Shown here: positions 1,156 to 30,169 of the stretch, piece by piece | Numbering within the stretch: the stretch's first letter is position 1 | How the letters are laid out: each line of letters begins with the position of its first letter | From: a virus | Virus record (IMG/VR): IMGVR_UViG_3300045966_000006 | Span: 1 to 30,169 of that record | Reading direction: 5' to 3' (one strand) | DNA: 30,169 nucleotides | Made by a program: the position numbers and the translations under genes | Notes under the pieces: model-generated | What the model saw: the letters and a program-made list of their open reading frames with translations, nothing else | Databases searched by the model: none | Told to the model about the DNA's origin: nothing

Positions 1156-1587
1156 TCAGCATGTCGAATAGAACGACCAGGCTTTGTCCAGATCGCCGGC
1201 CAGAAACAACGTCCAGCAGTCGTCGCCGATCAGGTCGATTCGGTGACGGTCGTCCGGCCGTAACACATTGACGTCACCTGGCACGTAGCAGCGGACGTCG
1301 CGTTCGTCGCCGGCGCCGCGGCAGCGTTCCTCGCGATAGCCGCCGACCAGGATCAGGCTGCTCGACCAACCCCACGGATGCGAATGAACCGCGACGGCCG
1401 GATCGCTGCCGACGAAATGGTGTAGGAACACGGCCGGTCCGGACCGTTTGCGGATCGGATTCCAGCCGGCCAGGAAATACCGGTCCAGGTACGGCTGACC
1501 GTTCGGCCGGATCGACTGCATGAACGCGGTAGACGCCAGCCGTTCACACCAGCGGCGGATCGTGTCCGCGTCGCCGAGGTCGGTCAT
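1156..1587 (-). CDS. Cupin-fold protein
   Basis: This encodes 143 residues starting at ATG 1587 (MTDLGDADTIRRW). The frame is open further upstream, but that extension overlaps the plus-strand gene at 1672 and reads as random. The core has LHHFVGSDPAVAVHSHPWGW, then SLILVGGYREE, then YVPGDVNVLRPDDRHRIDL and CWTLFLAG, which is the beta-barrel pattern of small phage cupins with a HxH metal pair and a later His. The metal and substrate cannot be read from sequence. It may be a single-gene accessory unit, since a promoter-like sequence lies immediately upstream. Cupin fold likely; function unknown. Confidence 0.8.
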   Translation of the reverse strand: MTDLGDADTIRRWCERLASTAFMQSIRPNGQPYLDRYFLAGWNPIRKRSGPAVFLHHFVGSDPAVAVHSHPWGWSSSLILVGGYREERCRGAGDERDVRCYVPGDVNVLRPDDRHRIDLIGDDCWTLFLAGDLDKAWSFYSTC

Positions 1588-1596
1588 GTCCGGACC

Positions 1597-1626
1597 CCTA
1601 TATCTAGTAGTTCGACCGACAGTCAA
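1597..1626 (-). promoter_or_regulatory. Sigma70-like promoter candidate upstream of the cupin gene
   Basis: On the minus strand TTGACT (1626-1621) is followed after 18 bases by TATAGG (1602-1597). The -35 match is good, the -10 fair. Transcription would begin about three bases before the ATG at 1587, leaving almost no leader and placing the AGGGG ribosome-binding-like sequence upstream of the start, so the call is tentative. The 84-bp gap is also the divergent space before the plus-strand gene at 1672. Confidence 0.3.
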
Positions 1627-1671
1627 TACCGCCGGTTCAGTGTGACAATCGAAACAGCTGAACTGCAGACT

Positions 1672-1893
1672 ATGAAACTGATCATCGCAAGCCGTCGTGA
1701 CGGAACGTGTCGCGGCTGCGGCGCCGCGATCGTCTGGTTTCAAACGCTGGCCGGCAAATTGATGCCCATGAATCGCTTTGCGCTGGCGCGAACGATCGAA
1801 ACCGACTTTCTGACCGGCGAACGAATCGGCGTGTTCGATCGCACGGATTCACACTGGAACTGTCCGCGCGCCGAACGGTTCCGCCGGCGCTGA
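1672..1893 (+). CDS. Small zinc-binding protein on the plus strand
   Basis: This encodes 73 residues from ATG 1672 (MKLIIASRRDGTC). A GTG at 1642 in the same frame is an alternative start. The CRGCGAAIVWFQTLAGKLMP segment and the closing SHWNCPRAERF follow a pattern I know from small phage proteins with two Cys near the start and a His/Cys pair near the end, which probably form one zinc site. It is the only plus-strand gene in the early block, divergent from the cupin gene and convergent with the gene ending at 1894. Function unknown. Confidence 0.72.
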   Translation: MKLIIASRRDGTCRGCGAAIVWFQTLAGKLMPMNRFALARTIETDFLTGERIGVFDRTDSHWNCPRAERFRRR

Positions 1894-3607: not shown

Positions 3608-3936
3608 TTACGGCGATCCAGTGTTAGAAACATCACCGTCAGTTTCACTTTCAGTTTCACTTAGTTTCACTTTCGACTTTGCGCCGGTTTCAGACCGACT
3701 TTCGCCTGGCCGGTGCAGCGCCAGAATCAGCCGATCGATCGCGTCCGGTCCTGGTTGATAGCCGGCCGCGGCGCCACGGTCCAGCCACGTCACGCAGCGG
3801 TCCACATGGACGACCGGTCCGCCCGTCACCAGGCCAAACTGCCGCGCCGCGTCCAGCGCCAGCAGCGCCGATGCCAGATCGACGGACCTCCTGCCATTCG
3901 GCCGGCGTCGCCGGATCCGCCGGCGGCGGTTTTCAT
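3608..3936 (-). pseudogene. Conserved small phage gene with an internal frame break
   Basis: Coding sense is VDLASALLALDAARQFGLVT, then GGPVVHVDRCVTWLDRGA, DAIDRLILALH and a charged tail rich in Ser, Glu and Lys. In that frame the only usable start is a GTG at 3829 that would cut off the first helix and has no ribosome-binding site. An ATG at 3936 overlaps the preceding stop as ATGA and encodes MKTAAGGSGDAGRMAGGP in a different frame; one missing base around 3885 would join them. The helix-rich layout suggests a small regulator, but I recognise no family. The 3' end contains the three 10-bp repeats. Confidence 0.5.
3641..3672. repeat. Three direct AGTTTCACTT repeats, possible integrase arm sites
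   Basis: AGTTTCACTT occurs three times without a mismatch at 3641-3650, 3653-3662 and 3663-3672, the last two abutting. They lie 48-80 bases from the end of the tRNA-like core. A looser inverse copy, AAGTAAGACT (8 of 10), is at 3500-3509 on the other side. Size, spacing and placement resemble arm-type sites of tyrosine integrases. The same bases encode the Lys/Ser/Glu-rich tail of the gene ending at 3608. Confidence 0.5.
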
Positions 3937-4574
3937 CGGCGTTTGCCTTTCGTCGCCGGCGGATCGATCGCTACCGTCGCCGGCGTCCGGCGTCGTCGTC
4001 GTCGACGTCCGGCGGCGTCGTGATCGGTTGCGCCCGGCCGGTCCGGCTGGCCTGGTCGGTTCGGCTGGCCTGGCTGGATCGGCTGACTGGGCCGAAGCCG
4101 CCGGCGACGCCGCCGGGCGTGTTCGGCGTCGTGTCGCTCATCTGTCGTACCTCCGACCGAACCGGCAGCACGATCGACGCCAGCGATCACGGCGTCGACG
4201 GCGGCTTGTGCCGCCTGACCGCGCCGCAGAAAGTCCGCCAGCAGGTCGCCGTCGTCCAGGTCGCGCCAGGTCGTCGCGTCGTCCTGGCTGGCGATCCAGG
4301 CGCCGACGTCGATTTCGATCTGAAAGGCATTGCGCGGCAGCGGCGCGATCACCTCGCGTTTGAATCGCTGATGGTAATGGACCGCCTGGCGCGGCGTCAG
4401 GCCAGCGTGTAACAGGATCGCCAGCGCCAGCTGCGCCGGTCCGCTGCCGGCATAGCCCCAACAAAAGCCGGTCGGCGAATGGTTCCAGACGGCTTGTGAC
4501 GGCCGCGGATCCAGCCGCCGGCCGTCGACATACACGACGCCGCCGCGATCGGTCCAGCGTCCGGTAATCGTCAC
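3933..4574 (-). CDS. DUF6166-like protein with low-complexity tail
   Basis: It starts at GTG 4574 (VTITGRWTDRGGVVYVDGRR), which overlaps the upstream stop as GTGA; 213 residues. The signature HSPTGFCWGYAGSGPAQLAL, then a YHQRFKREVIAPLP helix and a final IDVGAWIASQ match DUF6166-type phage proteins, whose function is unknown. After about residue 110 the product becomes Asp/Ala- then Arg/Pro/Gln-rich with PGQPNRPGQPDRPG repeats. The tail overlaps another small open frame with a strong ribosome-binding site, so the true C-terminus is uncertain, although the stop at 3933 does form an ATGA overlap with the next start. Confidence 0.65.
   Translation of the reverse strand: MTITGRWTDRGGVVYVDGRRLDPRPSQAVWNHSPTGFCWGYAGSGPAQLALAILLHAGLTPRQAVHYHQRFKREVIAPLPRNAFQIEIDVGAWIASQDDATTWRDLDDGDLLADFLRRGQAAQAAVDAVIAGVDRAAGSVGGTTDERHDAEHARRRRRRLRPSQPIQPGQPNRPGQPDRPGATDHDAAGRRRRRRRTPATVAIDPPATKGKRR
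3971..4141 (-). CDS. Overlapping 56-residue low-complexity open frame
   Basis: ATG 4141 is preceded by a perfect GGAGGT seven bases upstream. The product MSDTTPNTPGGVAGGFGPVS is followed by SSQASRTDQASRTGRAQ and an acidic DVDDDDAG end. It lies wholly inside the tail of the DUF6166-like frame. Either the two genes truly overlap, or an undetected base error shifts the DUF6166 frame so that it stops at the ATGA here and this gene runs on to 3933. The ribosome-binding site is the main support; the protein itself is disordered and unrecognised. Confidence 0.4.
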   Translation of the reverse strand: MSDTTPNTPGGVAGGFGPVSRSSQASRTDQASRTGRAQPITTPPDVDDDDAGRRRR

Positions 4575-4807
4575 AGGACCAGCCGCGCCGGAAACGCTTG
4601 CGGTTCGGACGGTCGGACGGCTGGCGTCGCGTGCAGTTCGCGATCGAATGCCGCGGTATCGTCGGCCGACTTGACCGCGATCCGCGTGACCATCATTTGA
4701 ATCGCGATACCGCCGTCCGTCGTGCCTTGCCAGATACGCGCCGGCACGCTGCCGCCGGCGGTCACGATGTCGATCACGCGATCGGTGCTTTCGATTGTGG
4801 CTTTCAC
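4571..4807 (-). CDS. 78-residue conserved hypothetical protein
   Basis: ATG 4807 overlaps the stop of the upstream gene as ATGA and the gene ends as GTGA into the DUF6166-like gene. The product begins MKATIESTDRVIDIVTAGG, then SVPARIWQGTTDGGIAIQMM and VTRIAVKSADDTAAFDREL, which suits a small beta-rich domain with one helix. I recall similar small proteins in the early operons of mycobacterial and soil phages without known function. Its first residues resemble those of the gene starting at 5544 (MKATVEV), so the two may be distant relatives or share only a start context. Confidence 0.7.
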   Translation of the reverse strand: MKATIESTDRVIDIVTAGGSVPARIWQGTTDGGIAIQMMVTRIAVKSADDTAAFDRELHATPAVRPSEPQAFPARLVL

Positions 4808-5322
4808 TGGATCTGCCTCCGCATGAATTCGCGCAGTACGGACAGCATGTCGTCGCGGTTTGCCGTGCTGAGATAGAACGTCGCGCCGCCTTCACCTTCA
4901 CCTGGCAGTCCGGTCGGACCGTAGGAAAACAGAAACAGCGTGAAACCGAAGCCGGCCGGCATATCGGCCTTTAGCCGCCGTCCAAGGTCGCGTAATCGGC
5001 TTTCGATTTCCGGACTGCGGACGTTGAAGCCGGCCGAGGCGTCAACGACGACCGGCGGCGCCGCCGGCGGCGCGGTTTCGGCCGCGTCCGCAGTCGCGAA
5101 CGCTTCGCATTCGGCTTGCAGCGATTCCAGGATTTCGACGCCTTCGTTTTCGCCGATCGCGTCGTCGCCGATCGTGTTCGCGACGGCCATGAGCAGCGCG
5201 TACGAACCGGCGTAAAAGGCGCGGCGGCATTCGTCGACCTGGATCGCCGGCGCGTCGTCTGGAATGACGCCGGCGCGGTAGCTGGCGAACATATCCGCGA
5301 TTGACAGCCGCGGCGGCGTCAT
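4804..5322 (-). CDS. 172-residue protein of two small phage domains
   Basis: ATG 5322 overlaps the stop of the frame-broken upstream gene as ATGA, although the same reading frame is open through it. Residues 1-75 (IADMFASYRAGVIP through DECRRAFYAGSYALLMAVAN, then NEGVEILESLQAECEAF) are helical. An Ala/Pro linker follows. Residues about 100-172 (SRLRDLGRRLKADMPAGFGF, FYLSTANRDDMLSVLREFMR) form a second domain that I know as a separate small phage protein. Both parts have unknown roles. The fusion is the notable point. It sits in the middle of a chain of overlapping genes downstream of integrase. Confidence 0.7.
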   Translation of the reverse strand: MTPPRLSIADMFASYRAGVIPDDAPAIQVDECRRAFYAGSYALLMAVANTIGDDAIGENEGVEILESLQAECEAFATADAAETAPPAAPPVVVDASAGFNVRSPEIESRLRDLGRRLKADMPAGFGFTLFLFSYGPTGLPGEGEGGATFYLSTANRDDMLSVLREFMRRQIQ

Positions 5323-21936: not shown

Positions 21937-22266
21937 TTACCGTGCCGTGCCGATATGCCAGGGGGCCAAAAGCGTCTGGACGCGGTACGACAAGGCGCCG
22001 CCTTTTTGCGGTTCCGGATTGTCGTCCGTGCCGCGGTTCGCCCACTGGTCGGCCAGGACGTTGAGGATCGCGGCGCGAACGTTCCGCGGCACGGTCGTCG
22101 CCGTCCACGGTTCCGCCGGCAGATTGAAATTCAGAAACGCGCCGACGATCGCCGTCGCGTCGTCGACTTTCGACTGAATGAACGCATCCCGTAAGGCGTG
22201 CGCGACGTCGATCTGTTCTTTGGCGTCGGCCAGCGTCACGATCGGTCCGGCAAAGACGTCGCCCAT
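21937..22266 (-). CDS. gp6-like head-tail connector
   Basis: This encodes 109 residues; the ATG shares one base with the upstream stop (TAATG). The helical pattern TLADAKEQIDVAHALRDAFI, QSKVDDATAIVGAFLNF and VPRNVRAAILNVLADQWANR is that of the HK97 gp6-like (Phage_gp6/connector) family that forms a ring under the portal. Length is typical. Its place between the portal block and the adaptor agrees. Confidence 0.85.
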   Translation of the reverse strand: MGDVFAGPIVTLADAKEQIDVAHALRDAFIQSKVDDATAIVGAFLNFNLPAEPWTATTVPRNVRAAILNVLADQWANRGTDDNPEPQKGGALSYRVQTLLAPWHIGTAR

Positions 22267-22793
22267 TACCGATCCGGACCTTTCCAGTCTTTACCGCGGC
22301 GGACCATGAGCGTCCAGGCGCCGACGTCGTTGCCGGGGCGCAGCTGTGTCGACTGGTTACAGTGCCAGAGGTTTCCGCCGGCGGTCACGACGTCGCCAGG
22401 CGCGTACGGCCGGCCGGCGACGTAGACGCCTTGATAGACGACCAGCGGCGGCGTCAGGACGACCTGGACGCCGTTTGCGAAACAGAACGTGAACGTCCGT
22501 ACGCCGTCATAGACCAGCGGCGGATCGGCGAAGCCGATGCCGTCCGCGCCGCGATCGCCGACCGGTCCTGGTAGCGCCGGCCGCGCCTCGACCGCGGCCA
22601 GGCGTTCGCGGACGGCGCCGACGTCGCCAGCCAGCGCGACCAGCGCGGCGGCGGTCGGCGGATCGGTCGTCCGGCGTTCCAGGTCCGCGATCCGCGTGTC
22701 GACTGCCGCCAGGCGCGTCAGGACCGGTCGCAGCGCCGTTCTGAGGACTTCCAGGACGTCCGCCGCCAGACGGACGGGATCAAGCCGCGGCAT
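22266..22793 (-). CDS. Virion protein with coiled coil, collagen-like and carbohydrate-binding-like parts
   Basis: It starts at ATG 22793 with GGAGGA five bases upstream; the frame is open a little further. The 175-residue protein has an N-terminal coiled coil (ADVLEVLRTALRPVLTRLAA, VDTRIADLERRT), a short collagen-like GPVGDRGADG, a beta part (LVYDGVRTFTFCFANGVQVV) and a C-terminal module (YVAGRPYAPGDVVTAGGNLW, HCNQSTQLRPGND, AWTLMVRRGKDWKG) resembling chitin-binding type 5/12 domains. Such proteins adorn heads or tails. It follows the portal gene with a 14-base overlap. Confidence 0.72.
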   Translation of the reverse strand: MPRLDPVRLAADVLEVLRTALRPVLTRLAAVDTRIADLERRTTDPPTAAALVALAGDVGAVRERLAAVEARPALPGPVGDRGADGIGFADPPLVYDGVRTFTFCFANGVQVVLTPPLVVYQGVYVAGRPYAPGDVVTAGGNLWHCNQSTQLRPGNDVGAWTLMVRRGKDWKGPDR

Positions 22794-24204
22794 ACCAGTC
22801 CTCCGCGCTGAGGGCTTTGTGGAAGGCATCGCGGAATGCCGCGTTCAGGTCGTCGTCGTCCAGGTCGTCGTCGTCCGCCGGCAGCGGTCCGCTGACCGCC
22901 GGCGTCGCCGGCGGCGGCTTGCTGAACGGCTGATCCTGGTCGCGTTCGGCCAGCGCCGTCAGACTGTAATTCTGCTGCTGCATGTACGGCGTATCGCCGC
23001 CGTCGACCGGTCCGAGGCCAAAGTAGCGGTACCTGGCTTCGTTCGGCGTCATGGCGCCCGATCCGATCGCGTCGACGGCGGCTTTCGTCCGCGTCGGCGA
23101 ATCCAGCCAGATCAGATCGTCGATCGCGAATTCAGTGCCGTACGGCCGGATCAGTTCCAGTCCGTCGTCGAGCGCGAATTCCAGCGCCGTCATATGCGCT
23201 TGCAGACATTGTGAATAGAACTGCTGTGTCGCCTGTTCGCTGTTCGCCGCCGGCGTCGCCTTGCTGGTATTGACCAGGCCGATCGGAACGTGGAAACAGC
23301 CGGCGATCGTTTCGTCGGACCAGTGCAGCTGATCGATCAGCTGTGCATCGGCGGCGGATTGTGCCGTGGCTTCGTATTTCATGCCGGCGTCGAGGACCGC
23401 GGCTTTGCCGACGTTCGTGCCGCCGTGCCGCGCGTACCAGTTTTCGAGGATCGCGTCGGCCTCCTGTTCGGTCAGCGGTAACGGCGACGTCAGGACGCCG
23501 GACGGCTGCGATCCGTTGGCAAAGAACGTCGTGGAACTTTCCTGAATGCGGAGGCCTTGCAGCGCCGCCAGGCCGCACGCATAGATCGGACTGACGCCGA
23601 CCAACGGATGAAACAGCGGTACCATGAGGTCGTGAATCAGTTCGCGCGCCGGCACGGCCGGAAAGTTCGGATCGAATCGATCCGGCGTCAAGCCGTTCAG
23701 GTCGTCGCGTCCGAGCTGGTAATAGACCGCGCCGTCCGGCGCGACCAGCGGCGTGACTTTCGTCGGATCCAGCACGTACAGCGCGACGACGACGCCGCGG
23801 CCGTCACGCTGTTTCAAGACATAGGTATTACCGTGGAGCAATTTCGATGCGATCCACAGTTCCACGAATTTCTGGATCGACTGGTAGCGGTTCGGCTTCC
23901 GCAGGACCGGCGAATACGCCGGACTGGTCGTGTCGGTCCACACCGTTCCGAGGTCGGTTTCCGTCGCGCTGACCAGGCGTAGTCGGCACTTTCCGATCGT
24001 TTCGGCGATCAGCGTCGCGCAAGCAAAGACGGTCGGATTCTGTGTGACGTCCGATAGCGCGATTTCTTCGTTCTTCTGCCAGGCGCCCGTGTACGGTTCA
24101 CGGACGACCGGCCAGCTGCCGCGGTACCGGCGTCGTTCCGGTACCGGCGTCAGCGGACCAGTCGCCCGCGTCAAGCGAAGTTCGTAGCCGAACGGCAGTT
24201 TCAC
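22780..24204 (-). CDS. Portal protein (HK97 family)
   Basis: It starts at GTG 24204, overlapping the capsid stop as GTGA; the open frame reaches further upstream but lies on the capsid gene. The 474-residue product contains PTVFACATLIAETIGKCRLR, FVELWIASKLLHGNTYVLKQ, VSPIYACGLAALQGLRIQES, FFANGSQPSGVL, and FHVPIGLVNTSKATPAANSE, a series of hallmarks of HK97-type portals. The C-terminus is acidic (DDDDLDDDDLNAAF). The dodecamer forms the DNA entry pore. Unusually, the gene follows the capsid gene rather than preceding it. Confidence 0.93.
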   Translation of the reverse strand: MKLPFGYELRLTRATGPLTPVPERRRYRGSWPVVREPYTGAWQKNEEIALSDVTQNPTVFACATLIAETIGKCRLRLVSATETDLGTVWTDTTSPAYSPVLRKPNRYQSIQKFVELWIASKLLHGNTYVLKQRDGRGVVVALYVLDPTKVTPLVAPDGAVYYQLGRDDLNGLTPDRFDPNFPAVPARELIHDLMVPLFHPLVGVSPIYACGLAALQGLRIQESSTTFFANGSQPSGVLTSPLPLTEQEADAILENWYARHGGTNVGKAAVLDAGMKYEATAQSAADAQLIDQLHWSDETIAGCFHVPIGLVNTSKATPAANSEQATQQFYSQCLQAHMTALEFALDDGLELIRPYGTEFAIDDLIWLDSPTRTKAAVDAIGSGAMTPNEARYRYFGLGPVDGGDTPYMQQQNYSLTALAERDQDQPFSKPPPATPAVSGPLPADDDDLDDDDLNAAFRDAFHKALSAEDWYAAA

Positions 24205-26153
24205 GATCGCCGTTTGTGATTCGTTTCCGGTTCCACGTCGACGGCCGGCGTCGGCTGGCGCCGTCCGGTCGCCGGATTCAGCATGAGCGACGGCGTATAG
24301 GTCGCGCCGCTGACGAACTTCACGGCGTTCGGCGTGATCCGTTTCCAGTTCACGTACCGCTCTGCGCGGAGGCCGACCAGGTTTTCCTGCCACAGCGACC
24401 GCATAACGACAGTCGCATCTGGCGGATTCATCGGCGCCGAATCCATCTGCACGGACGCCTCTTTCGACACGTCGACCGTCACCTGGCCGTCGTCGGCGTA
24501 CAGGATGTACGGCGCCGCGACGCCAATGACCCAGCCGTTCGCGGTATTCGACGTGATCACGTTGAAACCTTCGGCGTTTCCGCCTTTGACGCCGATGCCG
24601 GGGAACAGTCGCGCGCCGCTGACCGGATCACGCTGCCAGCCAAGCGTGAACGCATTCGTTTCCGACATGATCAGCGTCAGACTGCCGAGGCTGACGTTGG
24701 CCGTCGCGAATGCGCTGATGATCGCGTGCAGGTCCGCGACCGCATCACCCGTCGACGCGATCGGCGCGATGCCGTTCGTGATCGACGCCGGCGAAATGTT
24801 CGGCACTTCCGCGATCGCCGGATCGATAAATTGCTGATCGAGAAATTGCGCGATGCCTTTGATCATGTCGTTCCGGACCAGTTCTTCCGCGGCCGGCGTC
24901 GACAGCTTGGCCAGTTCGTCCGTGATGATAATGATCCCCGCGGCTTTCGCGATGCCGAGCGCGGTGGTACCGAACGCCAGTTTCGTGACCGGCTTCGGCG
25001 CACCCTGACCGACCCAGCCGTACGATCCGCCGGCGGTCTGCGCTGGTACCGTGACGTTGAACGGTACTTTCCGCAAACCGTTCGCGCCGCCGGTCGGCAT
25101 CTGGCCGAGGATCGTCGCCGGCCGTAGCAGGTCGATAAATTCGCCGGTGATGTTACTGACCTGTGCCAGCACGCCGGCCCACGCCGGATCGGTCGTCGAA
25201 CCTGGCGCGACCGCCGCTTTCACCCAGAGTTCGACTTCTGGCGTCGAATCAAACTGTCGCGCGTACTGGAGCGCCTGGTAGCCGTCGCCTTTCGCGCGTG
25301 CCAGACACATCAGCGACCGCACGAACAGATGCCCTTTGGGCAGTTCGGCGGATCGGACCTGGATCGTCGGCGTGCGGACGTCGCCGGCTTTCGTGACGAT
25401 CGGCGCCGCTGCCGCCATGTTCGCTTTCTCGAGGACGGACAGCCGCCGCAGCTGATCGTCGCAGCCGGACAGCTGACCGGCCAGGTCGTCGTACGTTTTC
25501 GCTTCGTTGCCGTCCAGCGTCGTCGTCCGACCGGACATCATGTCCGTCATTCGCTGCAGGAGCGGACCGCGAACGCCGGTCCAATGTGAGATCTGTTCCT
25601 GAATGGTTTGCATGGTGTTGGGTACTGCGGGAACGTCCGCGACGGCGGACACATGACGGCCGGACGCGGCCAGGTCGAACGCTTTGATTCCGGTAATCGT
25701 TGCGGACGGATTCGCCGGAACGGTGACGAGCGAGAGTTCAACGACTTCTGCGCGCGTGAAATGGTAGCCGCCGGTCGCCAGCGGCTTAATCCAGTCCGGT
25801 ACGGCGCGGTAGCCGATCGAAACGCCTTTCAAAAAGCCGGCGCGGATTGACTGCCAGGCCTCCTCAATGCGATCGCGCAGCGCCGGCGGATCGCTGATCG
25901 GTTTCAGCCAGGCGGTAAACGTCACGCCGGCGGCGGTCGGTCGGCCGAACGTCGCGACGCCGACCGGTCGTTCCTTGTCGTGGAACAGCAGGAGCGGCAG
26001 TTCGGCCGCGAATTCCAGGCCGAGCGGATCGATCACGTCGCCGCGGCGGTCCGGTTCCGGCGTCGTGGCAATGCCGGTGATGCGCCGTTCGTCGGCGTCG
26101 AACGCCTTGATCTGAAAGTCGTACCAGACGCGCGTGTCGGTTGTGCGGTCCAC
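24201..26153 (-). CDS. Prohead protease fused to major capsid protein
   Basis: Reads from GTG 26153 (weak ribosome-binding site); 650 residues. Residues 1-165 are an S78-type prohead protease with H58 (LLLFHDKERPVG), S112 (FLKGVSIGYR) and E139 (EVVELSLVTVPANPSA) as a likely triad. Residues about 180-250 form a helical delta/scaffold-like segment. Then comes the HK97-fold major capsid protein (FVRSLMCLARAKGDGYQALQ, VPFNVTVPAQTAGGSYGWVG, KAAGIIIITDELAKLSTPAA, DQQFIDPAIAEV, YVNWKRITPNAVKFVSG). The fusion is processed by self-cleavage after shell assembly in related systems; the cleavage site cannot be fixed here. Confidence 0.93.
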   Translation of the reverse strand: MDRTTDTRVWYDFQIKAFDADERRITGIATTPEPDRRGDVIDPLGLEFAAELPLLLFHDKERPVGVATFGRPTAAGVTFTAWLKPISDPPALRDRIEEAWQSIRAGFLKGVSIGYRAVPDWIKPLATGGYHFTRAEVVELSLVTVPANPSATITGIKAFDLAASGRHVSAVADVPAVPNTMQTIQEQISHWTGVRGPLLQRMTDMMSGRTTTLDGNEAKTYDDLAGQLSGCDDQLRRLSVLEKANMAAAAPIVTKAGDVRTPTIQVRSAELPKGHLFVRSLMCLARAKGDGYQALQYARQFDSTPEVELWVKAAVAPGSTTDPAWAGVLAQVSNITGEFIDLLRPATILGQMPTGGANGLRKVPFNVTVPAQTAGGSYGWVGQGAPKPVTKLAFGTTALGIAKAAGIIIITDELAKLSTPAAEELVRNDMIKGIAQFLDQQFIDPAIAEVPNISPASITNGIAPIASTGDAVADLHAIISAFATANVSLGSLTLIMSETNAFTLGWQRDPVSGARLFPGIGVKGGNAEGFNVITSNTANGWVIGVAAPYILYADDGQVTVDVSKEASVQMDSAPMNPPDATVVMRSLWQENLVGLRAERYVNWKRITPNAVKFVSGATYTPSLMLNPATGRRQPTPAVDVEPETNHKRRS

Positions 26154-26202
26154 AGCCGGCGAGGGTAAGACCGCGCCGGCTCGACTGTCGATTTTCCGTC
26201 CG

Positions 26203-26406
26203 TCAGCGCGGCGGCGTCGCCGGCGGCGGACGGCGCGTCATGGCGTCGCGGATCTGGTCGCGGATCCAGTCGTTGACGGACTGCCTGGCGCGTTTCGCTT
26301 CGGCATACGTTTTGTCGTACAGCTGCGCCGGTAAGACCAGATGCACGTCGACTGACCGGTGAGCGGGATCCAGGCGCGGACGTCCGCGGCGGTTCGTGTC
26401 GGTCAT
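26203..26406 (-). CDS. Small ribbon-helix-helix-like protein
   Basis: This encodes 67 residues; the ATG overlaps the TerL stop as ATGA. RRGRPRLDPAHRSVDVHLVL (basic tail and strand) is followed by PAQLYDKTYAEAKRARQSVN and DWIRDQIRDAMTRR (two helices), the outline of an Arc/CopG ribbon-helix-helix protein. Such a DNA-binding protein within the late operon might regulate head gene expression or bind packaging DNA; there is no direct evidence. A gap of 49 bases separates it from the protease-capsid gene. Confidence 0.72.
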   Translation of the reverse strand: MTDTNRRGRPRLDPAHRSVDVHLVLPAQLYDKTYAEAKRARQSVNDWIRDQIRDAMTRRPPPATPPR

Positions 26407-27950
26407 GGCGGCGCTCCTTTGTAGACGTAGACATGCGGCGTCGGCTTCGGCGCCGAATGCCGATCCATCATGTCGATCGCGATGATTAGCGCGACGACGC
26501 CATCGATTCGCGCCGTCGACTTATTCTTTGACGGTTTCAGGTTGCCGGCGGCGTCCGATTCGACGCTGACGTTCGATACGTTCCAGCGTAGAACCGGCTG
26601 GCCGCTATGCCGCAGCGTGCGACCGACGACGGCGCGTTCTAATGCTTTCGTCGGCGACGACATGGCCGCGAACCCCTGCCGGACCGGCACGCACAGAAAG
26701 CCGTCATGCGTTTTCAGCCGTTCGGTCAGATCGGTCGCGTTCCACGGATCGAAGCCGATCGCGATCACGTCGAATTCGTCGTCCCATTGCTGCAGCGTCG
26801 CGCGAACGGCTTCGTAGTCGACGCTGTTACCTGGCGTCAGCTGCAGCTGGCCGTCACGCGCCCACACGTCATACGGCACGCGGTCACGCCGGATCCGATC
26901 CGCCAGGTTGTCGGCCGGCAGATAGAACTGGGTCAGCACGTCGAAGCCGTCGCCGTCTGGAAACACGCCGACCGCCGCGGTCAGATCCGTCGTCGCCGAC
27001 AGGTCCAGGCCGACAAAGCAGCGGCGCCGCCGCAGCGCGGCGCGGTCGATCGCCTGGCGACAGCCGTCCCACGCGACCAGCTGCAGCCAGCGTGACGCCT
27101 GTTCGGTCCATTGGTTCAGGTACAGCCGGCGGAACGTGTTTTCCTGTGCCGGTATGACTTCGGCGCGACGGCCGGCGATCCGCATTTCTTCCAGGCTGCG
27201 AAAGTCGCCGAGCGCCGGATTCGCTTTGCGCCAGACGCGCTCCGACAGCCAGTTCGCGTCCTGTGCCGCGGCATAGATCACTGGCAGGAACGTCGGATCC
27301 AGGTTCGGATTCTCGCGGACGCGGAGGCCGTGTTCGTGCAGTTCGTAGCAGATCGAATGCCGGTCATAGCCGGCGGTCGTCGGAATAAACATCAGCGGAT
27401 TGCGCCGGCCGCCCGTCGACGTCGACAGCACGTCATACAGTTCGCGGTTCGGCGCCGCGTGCAGTTCGTCGTAGACGATCGTGCTGGCGTTGAATCCGTG
27501 TTTCGTGAACGCTTCGGAACTGATCGCACGGTAGAACGATCCTGACGGCCGATGGACGATCCGCTTTTGCGAATCGATCAGATCGCATTGGGCCTCCAGC
27601 GTCGGATCGTTGCGGATCATCTGTGCCGCGACGTGGAAACAGATCGCCGCCTGGTCTTTGTCGGCGGCGGCGCTGTAGACTTCGGCGCCGAGCTCCCCAT
27701 CGCCAAACAGACCGTACAGCGCGACCGCCGCGGCCAGTTCCGTCTTTCCGTTCTTCCGCGGAATTTCCAGCAGCACCGTCCGATACTGCCGCGTGCCGTC
27801 GCGCCGCGTGCGAAACGCCTGACGAATAATCCGTTCCTGCCACGGTCGCAGATTGAACGGCCGGCCGGCCCAGTCGCCTTTGGTATGCGTCAGATTGTTG
27901 ATAAACCGGACGGCGCGTGACGGACCAGGATCGGCGCGGCGCCGCGTCAT
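26403..27950 (-). CDS. Terminase large subunit (Terminase_1 type)
   Basis: This encodes 515 residues; ATG overlaps the glycosyltransferase stop as ATGA. The ATPase domain has a Walker A-like IPRKNGKTE (63-71) with K70-T71 variant spacing typical of this family, Walker B and catalytic Glu in TIVYDELHAA (157-166), and an FIPTTAGYD motif-III region. The RNase H-like nuclease domain has D316 (GLDLSATTD), D401 (GFDPWN) and D483 (RIDGVVALIIA). The motor uses ATP to thread DNA into the prohead and cuts the concatemer, probably at cos with the HNH protein. Confidence 0.96.
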   Translation of the reverse strand: MTRRRADPGPSRAVRFINNLTHTKGDWAGRPFNLRPWQERIIRQAFRTRRDGTRQYRTVLLEIPRKNGKTELAAAVALYGLFGDGELGAEVYSAAADKDQAAICFHVAAQMIRNDPTLEAQCDLIDSQKRIVHRPSGSFYRAISSEAFTKHGFNASTIVYDELHAAPNRELYDVLSTSTGGRRNPLMFIPTTAGYDRHSICYELHEHGLRVRENPNLDPTFLPVIYAAAQDANWLSERVWRKANPALGDFRSLEEMRIAGRRAEVIPAQENTFRRLYLNQWTEQASRWLQLVAWDGCRQAIDRAALRRRRCFVGLDLSATTDLTAAVGVFPDGDGFDVLTQFYLPADNLADRIRRDRVPYDVWARDGQLQLTPGNSVDYEAVRATLQQWDDEFDVIAIGFDPWNATDLTERLKTHDGFLCVPVRQGFAAMSSPTKALERAVVGRTLRHSGQPVLRWNVSNVSVESDAAGNLKPSKNKSTARIDGVVALIIAIDMMDRHSAPKPTPHVYVYKGAPP

Positions 27951-28777
27951 GGTTTCAACGTCCGCAATTTCAAGCCGTAATCATTCGGCGTCGGATCGAT
28001 CACGACGTCGGCTTTCCGTCGTAGCGGCGTATCGAAGCCGCGCCAGGCGTCGCGGACGACATGCTGCGGACGGCGGTACCGGCGATCGACGCTGACGACG
28101 CCAGGCCAGCGGCGGACCAGCGATCGCGCCATCTGTAGCCGGCCGTCGCCGCGATAGATCGGATGATTTCCGCCTTTCATGGTGAGGGTCTGCACCTTTT
28201 TCACGACGAACGCATTGACCAGGACCGTACACCAGCCGCCGGCGAGGACCTGCAGACACAGATCGGTATCGTCGTTGTACAGCGATCGCCAGCGGTACGG
28301 AATCGTGTTTAGGACCAGCGAACACGAATAGACGTGAACGTTCAGGTAGTACGGCGGCGGATTGTCTTTCGCGACGACATGCCAGGCGTAATTGAGACCG
28401 GCGATCGCGACGTTTTCGTACCGATCGGCAAAGTCCTCGCAGACCGCCAGCGCGACGCCGAACGGACAGCTGATTTTCCGATGCCCCCATTTCCGATAGG
28501 CGCGGTAAATGTTGTCGTCCAGCTGCCAGTGCCGAACCTGGCCGGCGGCGGTCGCATGGTCTTTGATCCAGTTCCGCGCCGCGATCAGCCCGCGATTCGC
28601 AAACGGCAGCGTCAGCAGTCGATCGGCGCCGAAGTGTGCGGCGTACGCGTCGTGTTCCAGCGGTTCAACGACCAGGCGGTACGGCGTGCCTTCCGCGTCC
28701 AGACAGCGCGGCGTCTGACAGACCGCGGCGCGACCTTTCGACGGAATGTAGATCGGATAGCGCGGACGTCGCGCCAT
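27947..28777 (-). CDS. TET-associated-type glycosyltransferase (TAGT-like)
   Basis: This encodes 276 residues from ATG 28777, with GGAGG ten bases upstream; the longer frame upstream is a shadow of the ParB gene. The start PIYIPSKGRA, then FANRGLIAARNWIKDHA, WQLDDNIYRAY (LDDN 86-89, the DxD-like metal/nucleotide site of a GT-A fold), the YNDDTDLCLQVLAGGWCTVL block (167-186) and TMKGGN...YRGDGRLQMA (199-216) follow the family of phage glycosyltransferases linked with TET/JBP dioxygenases. Members are thought to transfer sugars onto hydroxymethylated pyrimidines in phage DNA. Here it lies between TerS and TerL with no TET gene in the window. Family assignment is by remembered motifs; sugar and base are unknown. 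Confidence 0.82.
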   Translation of the reverse strand: MARRPRYPIYIPSKGRAAVCQTPRCLDAEGTPYRLVVEPLEHDAYAAHFGADRLLTLPFANRGLIAARNWIKDHATAAGQVRHWQLDDNIYRAYRKWGHRKISCPFGVALAVCEDFADRYENVAIAGLNYAWHVVAKDNPPPYYLNVHVYSCSLVLNTIPYRWRSLYNDDTDLCLQVLAGGWCTVLVNAFVVKKVQTLTMKGGNHPIYRGDGRLQMARSLVRRWPGVVSVDRRYRRPQHVVRDAWRGFDTPLRRKADVVIDPTPNDYGLKLRTLKP

Positions 28778-28781
28778 GCGG

Positions 28782-29588
28782 TCAGTCCTCCGATTCGTCG
28801 AACGTTTCCGCGTGGTTCGGCGTGCGTGTCCGCAGCGGATACCAGATCGATTGTTTCGATTCGCGCACGACGACATGCTTTTTCGTCGCGCCGATCGCCT
28901 TGAAAAAGGCGGCGCGATCCGCCGGCGTCTGACAGAACACATGCACAGTCAACGGCGTGTCCTGGTCGTTCGTCGACGGCAGACCGACCCATTCCGCCGC
29001 GGCGTCATGGTCTTTGATTTCCGACGCCGGCCGGCTGACCATGACCAGCGCCGCCAGCTGTTCGGCGTCGTAGCCGGTCCCCAGCAGCGTCGTCAGGTCC
29101 GAATCGCTGATCGATTTCAGCATGTCGGTCAGCTGCCGGTCGTCGACGTCGGCCAGCTGTGCGATCTGGTTATCGCCGATCAGCAATTTGAGCGCTCGCG
29201 GATCGGACGGCGCCAGGTCCAGGCGAATCACCGGAACCGCCGGCAGCTGCAATTTCTTCGCGGCTTCGACGACGCCGTGACCGGCCAGGATCGTCCAGTC
29301 ACGCGCGACGACGACGTTTCGATACAAGCCGTGTTCTTCGATCGATCGACACAAATGGTCCAGCTGTTCGGCGGTATGCGTGCGGTAGTTCTGCGGGTGC
29401 GGACGTAAGGTCGCGACGTCGGCGGATTCGCGCCGCAGCACTGGCGCGGGCGCGCCGTTCGTGCGGCGGCGTGCGGCCGTCGACGCTGGCCGCGTTGAAC
29501 CGCGTTTCGCCGACACTGGCCGCGTCTTTCCGCGTTTGGCCGTTACAGGTTTCTGGCGTCGGTCACGCCGGACAGTAGCCCGTCCCAC
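28782..29588 (-). CDS. ParB/sulfiredoxin-fold domain protein
   Basis: Starts at GTG 29588 (AGGA ten bases upstream); an internal GTG at Val25 is possible. Residues 1-50 are basic with two copies of a [TS]AKRGxTRP repeat. Residues 56-125 are a ParB N-terminal-like domain: LRPHPQNYRTH, LCRSIEEHGLYRNVVVARD, ILAGHGVVEAAKKL (Val where an Arg is common in the GHGR motif). A helical part follows to about 185, then a beta-rich C-terminal domain (LTVHVFCQTPADRAAFFKAI) closing with KQSIWYP. Such proteins occur next to DNA-modification enzymes in phages. It overlaps TerS by 46 bases and the glycosyltransferase start follows after four bases, so the pair is likely co-translated. Confidence 0.85.
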   Translation of the reverse strand: MGRATVRRDRRQKPVTAKRGKTRPVSAKRGSTRPASTAARRRTNGAPAPVLRRESADVATLRPHPQNYRTHTAEQLDHLCRSIEEHGLYRNVVVARDWTILAGHGVVEAAKKLQLPAVPVIRLDLAPSDPRALKLLIGDNQIAQLADVDDRQLTDMLKSISDSDLTTLLGTGYDAEQLAALVMVSRPASEIKDHDAAAEWVGLPSTNDQDTPLTVHVFCQTPADRAAFFKAIGATKKHVVVRESKQSIWYPLRTRTPNHAETFDESED

Positions 29589-30058
29589 TTGCTACCGTCC
29601 TGCGAGGAATGGTCCGGTAACGCCGTGATCCTGGCGCGTCCACTTGGCGTCAATCCGAGTTCGACCCATAGCCGGTGACAGTGTGCCAGAGCTTTGTCGG
29701 CGATCGCCAGGAACGGATTCGCGATCGGTACGCCTTTCGGCGTTTTGACCAGCATGCCGAGCGCGCGGATTTTCGTCTGTGCTTCCAGGTACCGCGACCA
29801 TTGTTGGCACAGCGCCAGCAGGACCGTCCGTTCCGCTTCCGTCGCCAGGCGGCAGTTCCGCAGCATCGGCGCGACGCGGCGCCACTCGGCTTCGGCGATC
29901 GGATCGCCGGCCAGTTCGATCGGCGGCGTGTCGAACGCCGGCGTCGCCGCCGGCGGCTTCGCTTCGCCTGGATTGATCCGACGCTTGCCAGGATTACCGC
30001 GAATCAGCCGCATTTGTGTCGGCTGCGGTCGGCGTCCGCTGTTCCAGTTACCGGCCAT
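29543..30058 (-). CDS. Terminase small subunit (P27 family)
   Basis: This encodes 171 residues from ATG 30058 (MAGNWNSGRRPQPTQMRLIR); a TTG at 30070 in frame would fall within the hairpin. The hallmark RLIRGNPGKRRINPGEAKPP is the P27-like TerS N-terminus. The middle holds two helices (IAEAEWRRVAPMLRNCRLAT, VLLALCQQWSRYLEAQTKIR) and a helical C-terminus (LAIADKALAHCHRLWVELGL, TPSGRARI). The protein recognises the packaging site and recruits TerL. It is the first gene of the late operon. Confidence 0.95.
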   Translation of the reverse strand: MAGNWNSGRRPQPTQMRLIRGNPGKRRINPGEAKPPAATPAFDTPPIELAGDPIAEAEWRRVAPMLRNCRLATEAERTVLLALCQQWSRYLEAQTKIRALGMLVKTPKGVPIANPFLAIADKALAHCHRLWVELGLTPSGRARITALPDHSSQDGSKWDGLLSGVTDARNL

Positions 30059-30068
30059 AGCGTTCGAC

Positions 30069-30093
30069 AAACTGCACTTTTTTAGTGCAGTTT
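30069..30093. promoter_or_regulatory. Nine-bp hairpin just upstream of TerS
   Basis: AAACTGCAC (30069-30077) and GTGCAGTTT (30085-30093) are exact complements around a TTTTTTA loop. It ends 11 bases before the TerS ATG. On the minus strand no T-run follows the stem, so it is not a classical terminator. It may bind terminase as part of cos or control TerS translation. Confidence 0.6.
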
Positions 30094-30169
30094 CCGTGGG
30101 GCCCCTGCAGAAATGGCCGATTTTCGGCGGTTTTCACGATTCGATTTTCCGCGAAAATGCGTCCGTCGA
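30094..30169. other. Right-end cos/packaging-site candidate with clustered dyads
   Basis: No gene is seen. The stretch holds GGGGCCCC (30098-30105), GCCGA-TTT-TCGGC (30116-30128) and ATTTTC-CGC-GAAAAT (30144-30158). The last seven bases, CCGTCGA, are the complement of the first seven of the window, TCGACGG, so joining the ends makes the palindrome CCGTCGATCGACGG. Together with the position between HNH and TerS genes this suits a cos region, but chance cannot be excluded. Confidence 0.4.

Follow-up and report, generated by a model that had tools for sequence, protein, structure and literature searches.

The window, a complete IMG/VR virus record of 30,169 bases, encodes a TAGT-family glycosyltransferase, which probably belongs to a subclass of the phage TAGT DNA glycosyltransferases that is independent of TET. 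The obligate partner of this subclass would be a small domain, termed here W.gMP-SIWYP and carried in the window by the ParB-like protein encoded upstream of TAGT, so that dedicated docking or DNA recognition would replace TET-linked targeting. The evidence comes from a near-exclusive two-way linkage of domain and enzyme, from the switching of the domain between attachment sites, and from the near absence of TET among the relatives.

The TAGT gene (27947..28777, minus strand; 276 aa) matches the full length of the TAGT family model PF20691 (E 1.5e-40; bit score 139.8, cut-off 27.5; model positions 1-205 of 205) and PHROG 842 'beta-glucosyl-HMC-alpha-glucosyltransferase' (2e-36), which bears out the TAGT call made for this gene in the initial annotation. 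An alignment of 33 sequences contains the invariant motifs QLDDN (D87, D88) and NDDTD (N168, D170, D172). A sequence search of solved structures with the TAGT profile gave no match. The neighbours of the predicted structure (pLDDT 90.1, pTM 0.88) are glycosyltransferases (Z 12.8-14.7, rmsd 3.0-5.0), the best being E. coli BcsA (Z 14.7, rmsd 4.2 over 204 residues), followed by Pyrobaculum PcManGT (Z 14.4) and GalNAc-T2 (Z 14.4), with hyaluronan synthase also among the matches. We take these structures to represent the GT-A fold, which is the fold predicted for the window enzyme. No near DNA match to positions 22001-30169 was found in the phage collection. The closest relative is 66% identical over 268 aligned codons, with 62, 61 and 155 differences at codon positions 1, 2 and 3, respectively, and by this comparison the gene looks intact and under purifying selection.

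TAGT is located in the packaging cluster, where the gene order is TerS-ParB/domain-TAGT-TerL, all on the minus strand, with ParB and TAGT inserted between the genes for the small terminase subunit (29543..30070; PF05119 6.9e-23) and the large one (26403..27950; PF20441 2.7e-41, PF03354 4.1e-23). The start of TerL overlaps the stop of TAGT by 4 nt (ATGA), and a 4-nt gap separates the ParB stop from the TAGT start codon. The ParB-like protein (28782..29588; PHROG 498/620 at about 1e-27) has a weak ParB_N domain at residues 58-125 (29214..29417; PF02195 9.1e-05), sub-threshold at 22.9 bits against the curated cut-off of 26.3, which also matches the Spo0J structure 6sdk (E 4.3e-05). The ParB CTP-binding box is named GERR, and at the position of the Spo0J GERR box the window protein reads GHGV; it is therefore unlikely to be a CTP-switched clamp, and the role of its ParB_N domain may be to recognise a sequence or just to strengthen binding to DNA. 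The C-terminus of the same protein carries the W.gMP-SIWYP domain (residues 194-251, 28836..29009, minus strand; profile 3.4e-25, extending to about residue 266), directly upstream of TAGT on the same strand. The domain spans roughly 65 residues with the pattern W.gMP ... F ... kSIWyP.

To assess the conservation of this arrangement, we compared the window with 80 related loci (81 in total), most of them on contigs that may be incomplete. Clustering of the ORFs placed a ParB-like gene upstream of TAGT on the same strand in 70 of the 81 loci, and ParB and TAGT were the only genes whose position is constant among phages that are otherwise unlike one another. With an iterated profile, the W.gMP-SIWYP domain was found in 75/81 loci, and the six misses have just 2-424 nt of upstream sequence. 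The initial annotation had suggested that an unrecognised partner might exist, and the domain now fills that place. In 44 loci its carrier is a ParB_N protein no more than 400 nt from TAGT, and in 11 loci a ParB_N protein at 400-1500 nt; it stands alone within 400 nt in 14 loci and further off in 2; it is fused to TAGT in 2, is part of a longer ORF in 1, and has a ParB_N carrier encoded downstream of TAGT in 1 (L048). Many of the longer distances can be accounted for by a second TAGT-profile match, often located between ParB and the main TAGT, which was detected in ten loci (L008, L009, L021, L023, L025, L028, L039, L040, L044 and L073). Among genome contigs the domain is present in 10/12, one exception being truncated (L096) and the other, with a distant TAGT (26% identical), being truly without it (L097). 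In a further group, P0002, found with a Vibrio phage TAGT, 54/55 members have the domain and the sole miss is truncated; this set is biased, since the query itself contained the domain. Because of this bias and of the many near-copy loci, the counts are not independent trials. The small domain occurs without ParB_N in 14+2 of the 75 loci of the window group and in 37/54 of the P0002 group, and as so many loci keep the small domain alone, we downgraded ParB_N as an essential part of the system.

The reverse search, with the domain alone as the query, avoids circularity. The domain consensus gave 19 matches in 50,697 phage records, and all 19 belong to the 24 TAGT-bearing records, with the domain immediately upstream of TAGT on the same strand. 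In viral contigs the domain occurs in at least 576 stretches; among the best 80 of these, TAGT follows within 3 kb downstream in 76 and directly downstream in 61. Three of the four TAGT-less loci end within 700 nt, and the fourth, L217, has 2.7 kb of sequence without TAGT. Inspection by eye revealed a methyltransferase-like ORF right after the stand-alone domain, at the usual place of TAGT, in L201, L210 and L217. The three architectures (domain on ParB, alone, or on TAGT) interchange on the TAGT tree, which includes 114 sequences; they require 15 label changes, compared to a mean of 46.1 after shuffling, and the fused architecture needs 5 changes, at least 4 of them on well-supported branches. 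When a domain is joined again and again to one enzyme or to the protein encoded next to it, this classically indicates a partner, be it physical or functional.

We then assessed the enzymes that would be expected to prepare an acceptor base. Searches of the whole record for Tet_JBP (PF12851), C5 methyltransferase (PF00145), thymidylate synthase/hydroxymethylase (PF00303) and N6/N4 methyltransferase (PF01555) detected none of the four families. These results agree with the initial annotation, which had reported neither a TET nor a DNA methyltransferase, and the search for dioxygenases and hydroxymethylases that it had proposed returned neither PF12851 nor PF00303. Pfam scans of 10 + 38 window ORFs likewise revealed no oxygenase or base-modifying enzyme except TAGT, the families found being phage structural, terminase, integrase, HTH, VRR-NUC and HNH; the two longest tail ORFs (tape-measure and long tail) were covered by the four whole-record searches only. 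A protein with DUF6166 (2.2e-21) is encoded at 3933-4901 on the minus strand. The cupin-like protein (1156-1743, minus strand), put forward earlier as a candidate, matches PHROG 4786 'cysteine dioxygenase' at 7.7e-28, as a missing dioxygenase of the window phage might, but its family is found in the window and in 0/35 relatives and its gene lies about 26 kb from TAGT. We rejected it as a shared partner, and its being the dioxygenase of this phage has next to no probability.

The same families were surveyed in 36 records, namely the window and those 35 of the 80 relatives whose contigs reach 20 kb or more. TET was present in 1/36 (G007 being the sole carrier), C5 methyltransferase in 6/36, the thymidylate-synthase family in 1/36 and N6/N4 methyltransferase in 8/36 (7 above cut-off). 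The TET-less state is thus the rule for the TAGT lineage of the window, and since many TAGTs of the wider collection also lack a TET, the window is typical rather than exceptional. The 'orphan' label of the initial annotation is right for TET and wrong for partners in general. Methyltransferases and thymidylate-synthase enzymes were rejected as general TAGT partners, given their scattered occurrence. We also rejected the idea that TAGTs generally have a radical SAM enzyme as their partner; a motif scan revealed radical-SAM-like ORFs near TAGT in four loci (L003:7491-8900, L013:2635-3762, L016:674-2368 and L043:43-1050) and none in the window.

An acceptor-making enzyme (TET, hydroxymethylase or methyltransferase) might instead be encoded outside the record or by the host, with TAGT as an ordinary late enzyme in a divided pathway. 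End repeats are absent from the record, which may therefore be a fragment, and in the P0002 group four large T4-like phages do carry a thymidylate-synthase family enzyme. However, the nearest relative record, G001 (30,486 bases), is bounded by TerS and HNH, as the window is, and this shared span argues that both are near-complete; moreover, none of the surveyed enzymes recurs among the 36 records. We therefore regard a split pathway as rather unlikely. The window being the whole IMG/VR record and the span shared with G001 support, short of proof, the earlier description of the window as a nearly whole genome, which it probably is. The ends of both records are perhaps of the cos type. Positions 1-7 and 30163-30169 of the window form a 7-base inverted match (TCGACGG...CCGTCGA), and a circular junction of these ends would form a 14-base palindrome, perhaps connected with the packaging site or with assembly.

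TET and the partner domain are nearly mutually exclusive. In addition to the 1/36 above, TET was found in 0/44 further domain-linked records. When we started from TET proteins, a TAGT was close by in 8/24 loci; the domain was missing from seven of them, and the eighth is G007. The seven domain-less loci belong to one lineage, with TETs 77-100% identical to the query, so that they constitute a pattern and not a statistic. In G007, the Tet_JBP gene is about 2 kb downstream of TAGT, in a separate hypermodification cluster. Its locus (L085:8673-14453) places ParB-TAGT beside Ploopntkinase3, a second ParB, Tet_JBP and an ADDT amino acid:DNA transferase, together with an ORF that looks like an FAD oxidase and has no Pfam match, so that two modification modules, each headed by a ParB, follow one another.

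The ParB-like protein had been named earlier as a candidate worth testing for the missing activity. It does carry the partner domain, and in this respect the suggestion holds; as a dioxygenase it does not, being a ParB_N domain joined to a domain without a metal signature. Inspection of the domain alignment revealed neither a conserved His/Asp metal signature nor a nucleotide motif. A Pfam search with nine stand-alone copies gave nothing significant, and PHROG 22103 'unknown function' matched one stand-alone copy, the second small copy of L139, which follows TAGT. In a model of a fused domain-TAGT protein, the domain block (residues 31-100) has a pLDDT of 53-85, too uncertain for reading an interface, and with a fold of such low confidence we infer, rather than observe, docking or DNA binding. 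The ParB_N plus W.gMP-SIWYP protein could also make the acceptor itself, the two genes then forming a self-contained modification pathway. The ParB/sulfiredoxin superfamily includes kinases, ParB_N recurs beside TET, ADDT and methyltransferase genes, and ParB and TAGT are the sole genes with a fixed place, all of which would suit such a role. It is nevertheless very unlikely, given the many loci without ParB_N, the lack of a conserved metal or nucleotide motif in the domain, and the replacement of the GERR box by GHGV. Our search for literature combining TAGT, ParB, phage and glycosyltransferase found no such work and no description of the partner domain, which may nonetheless be described outside the literature searched. 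A 2013 NAR paper by Iyer et al. may be relevant here.

The family member with known chemistry is the T6 beta-glucosyl-HMC-alpha-glucosyltransferase, which belongs to the same PF20691 family and is matched by the window-group profile at 1.1e-08, at a very large distance from the window TAGT (34% over 56 residues). It is encoded next to a dCMP hydroxymethylase, not a TET, according to the T6 gene order, whereas the window has no hydroxymethylase; no W.gMP-SIWYP domain was found in the 16 kb of T6 sequence examined. The T6 enzyme adds a second glucose to glucosyl-hmC (PMC13216743), and the earlier premise that known TAGTs need a methyltransferase and a TET was hence too narrow. The same paper reports solitary TAGT homologs, without alpha- or beta-GT, in 288/753 phage genomes and suggests that novel transferases are encoded there (PMC13216743, 2026). 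The TAGT-like protein of Nonlabens phage P12024L (27% identical to the window TAGT over 230 residues) has as its neighbours an oxygenase of family PF12851 and a DNA methyltransferase, neither of which accompanies the window TAGT, and its cassette, unlike that of the window, has no ParB and no partner domain. The T4-like Aeromonas phages Aeh1, 65, Ah1 and phiAS5 and the Tenacibaculum phage PTm1 have TAGTs 33-37% identical to that of the window. They share the W.gMP-SIWYP domain with it, but as part of the TAGT protein instead of on ParB; the four Aeromonas records examined encode a thymidylate-synthase-family enzyme, consistent with an hmC substrate there, and the window does not.

Phage fusions of ParB_N to DNA methyltransferase (PHROG 498) contain the same kind of ParB_N as the window protein, with a methyltransferase in place of the glycosyltransferase as the partner. 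The CmoX-associated ParBc is likewise a ParB_N-type domain with a DNA-modifying enzyme, and the precise role of the ParB_N-methyltransferase fusion is called unknown in PMC12783734. The thymidine hypermodification cluster of Rhodococcus phage Tonitrus includes ParB, a TET-like protein, aGPT-Pplase2 and a 5-hmU kinase; the excerpt describing it names no TAGT (PMC11955845), and the window lacks the other genes of this cluster. A cluster similar to that of Tonitrus adjoins ParB-TAGT in G007.

The nature of the acceptor was approached through genomic context. In L073:3912-7733 (plus strand), a single frame of 1277 codons combines two domain-like copies and TAGT (2.3e-37) with a DNA polymerase of family A (DNA_pol_A, 3.3e-19) behind a long linker, and L074:9569-10975 contains a matching, truncated copy. 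The polymerase fusion, the sharing of ParB_N with DNA methyltransferases, the G007 context and the thymidylate-synthase-family enzymes of the Aeromonas phages all point to DNA as the likely TAGT substrate. The enzyme could instead act on a protein, an RNA or a cell-surface glycan, with the domain as a targeting subunit. Its closest solved folds (BcsA, hyaluronan synthase, GalNAc-T2) are indeed those of polysaccharide or protein glycosyltransferases, and the fold alone is silent on the acceptor. Against such an acceptor are the fusion to DNA polymerase A, the ParB_N domain common to DNA methyltransferases and the action on DNA of the T6 TAGT, the family member with known chemistry (PMC13216743), and we consider it unlikely. 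The window TAGT is a putative catalyst, and its transfer of a sugar to a DNA base is predicted from the T6 enzyme and from the polymerase and ParB_N contexts. As no enzyme for hydroxymethylation, methylation or nucleotide modification is recognisable in the genome, the acceptor would pre-exist in host-made DNA or be on an ordinary base. The candidate acceptors in the window phage are thus a component of host-made DNA and an ordinary base, a target other than DNA being less likely; in the T4-like members the acceptor can be hmC.

According to the favoured reading of a TET-independent subclass with an obligate partner domain, the ParB-domain protein and TAGT would be made together with the packaging machinery, and the domain would bind TAGT, DNA or both and bring the enzyme to the phage DNA. 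A sugar from host NDP-sugars would be transferred onto this DNA, and the glycosylated product may protect the packaged DNA from restriction or CRISPR. It is conceivable, though doubtful, that the system works without any prior base oxidation, the domain, in many cases on ParB, loading TAGT onto the DNA or, as the polymerase fusion would suggest, onto the replisome, and an ordinary base being sugared directly, for example on an exocyclic amino group.

DNA glycosylation is a major route by which phages escape restriction and CRISPR, and to our knowledge all of its pathways first install a hydroxyl handle. The partner domain sets a TET-independent TAGT subclass apart by sequence and provides a concrete second component, by which the substrate question becomes testable. 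Glycosyltransferases thereby join the DNA-modifying enzymes that are paired with phage ParB_N domains. If the direct modification of an ordinary base were true, it would represent a DNA glycosylation chemistry without a hydroxymethyl handle that is widespread in uncultivated viruses.
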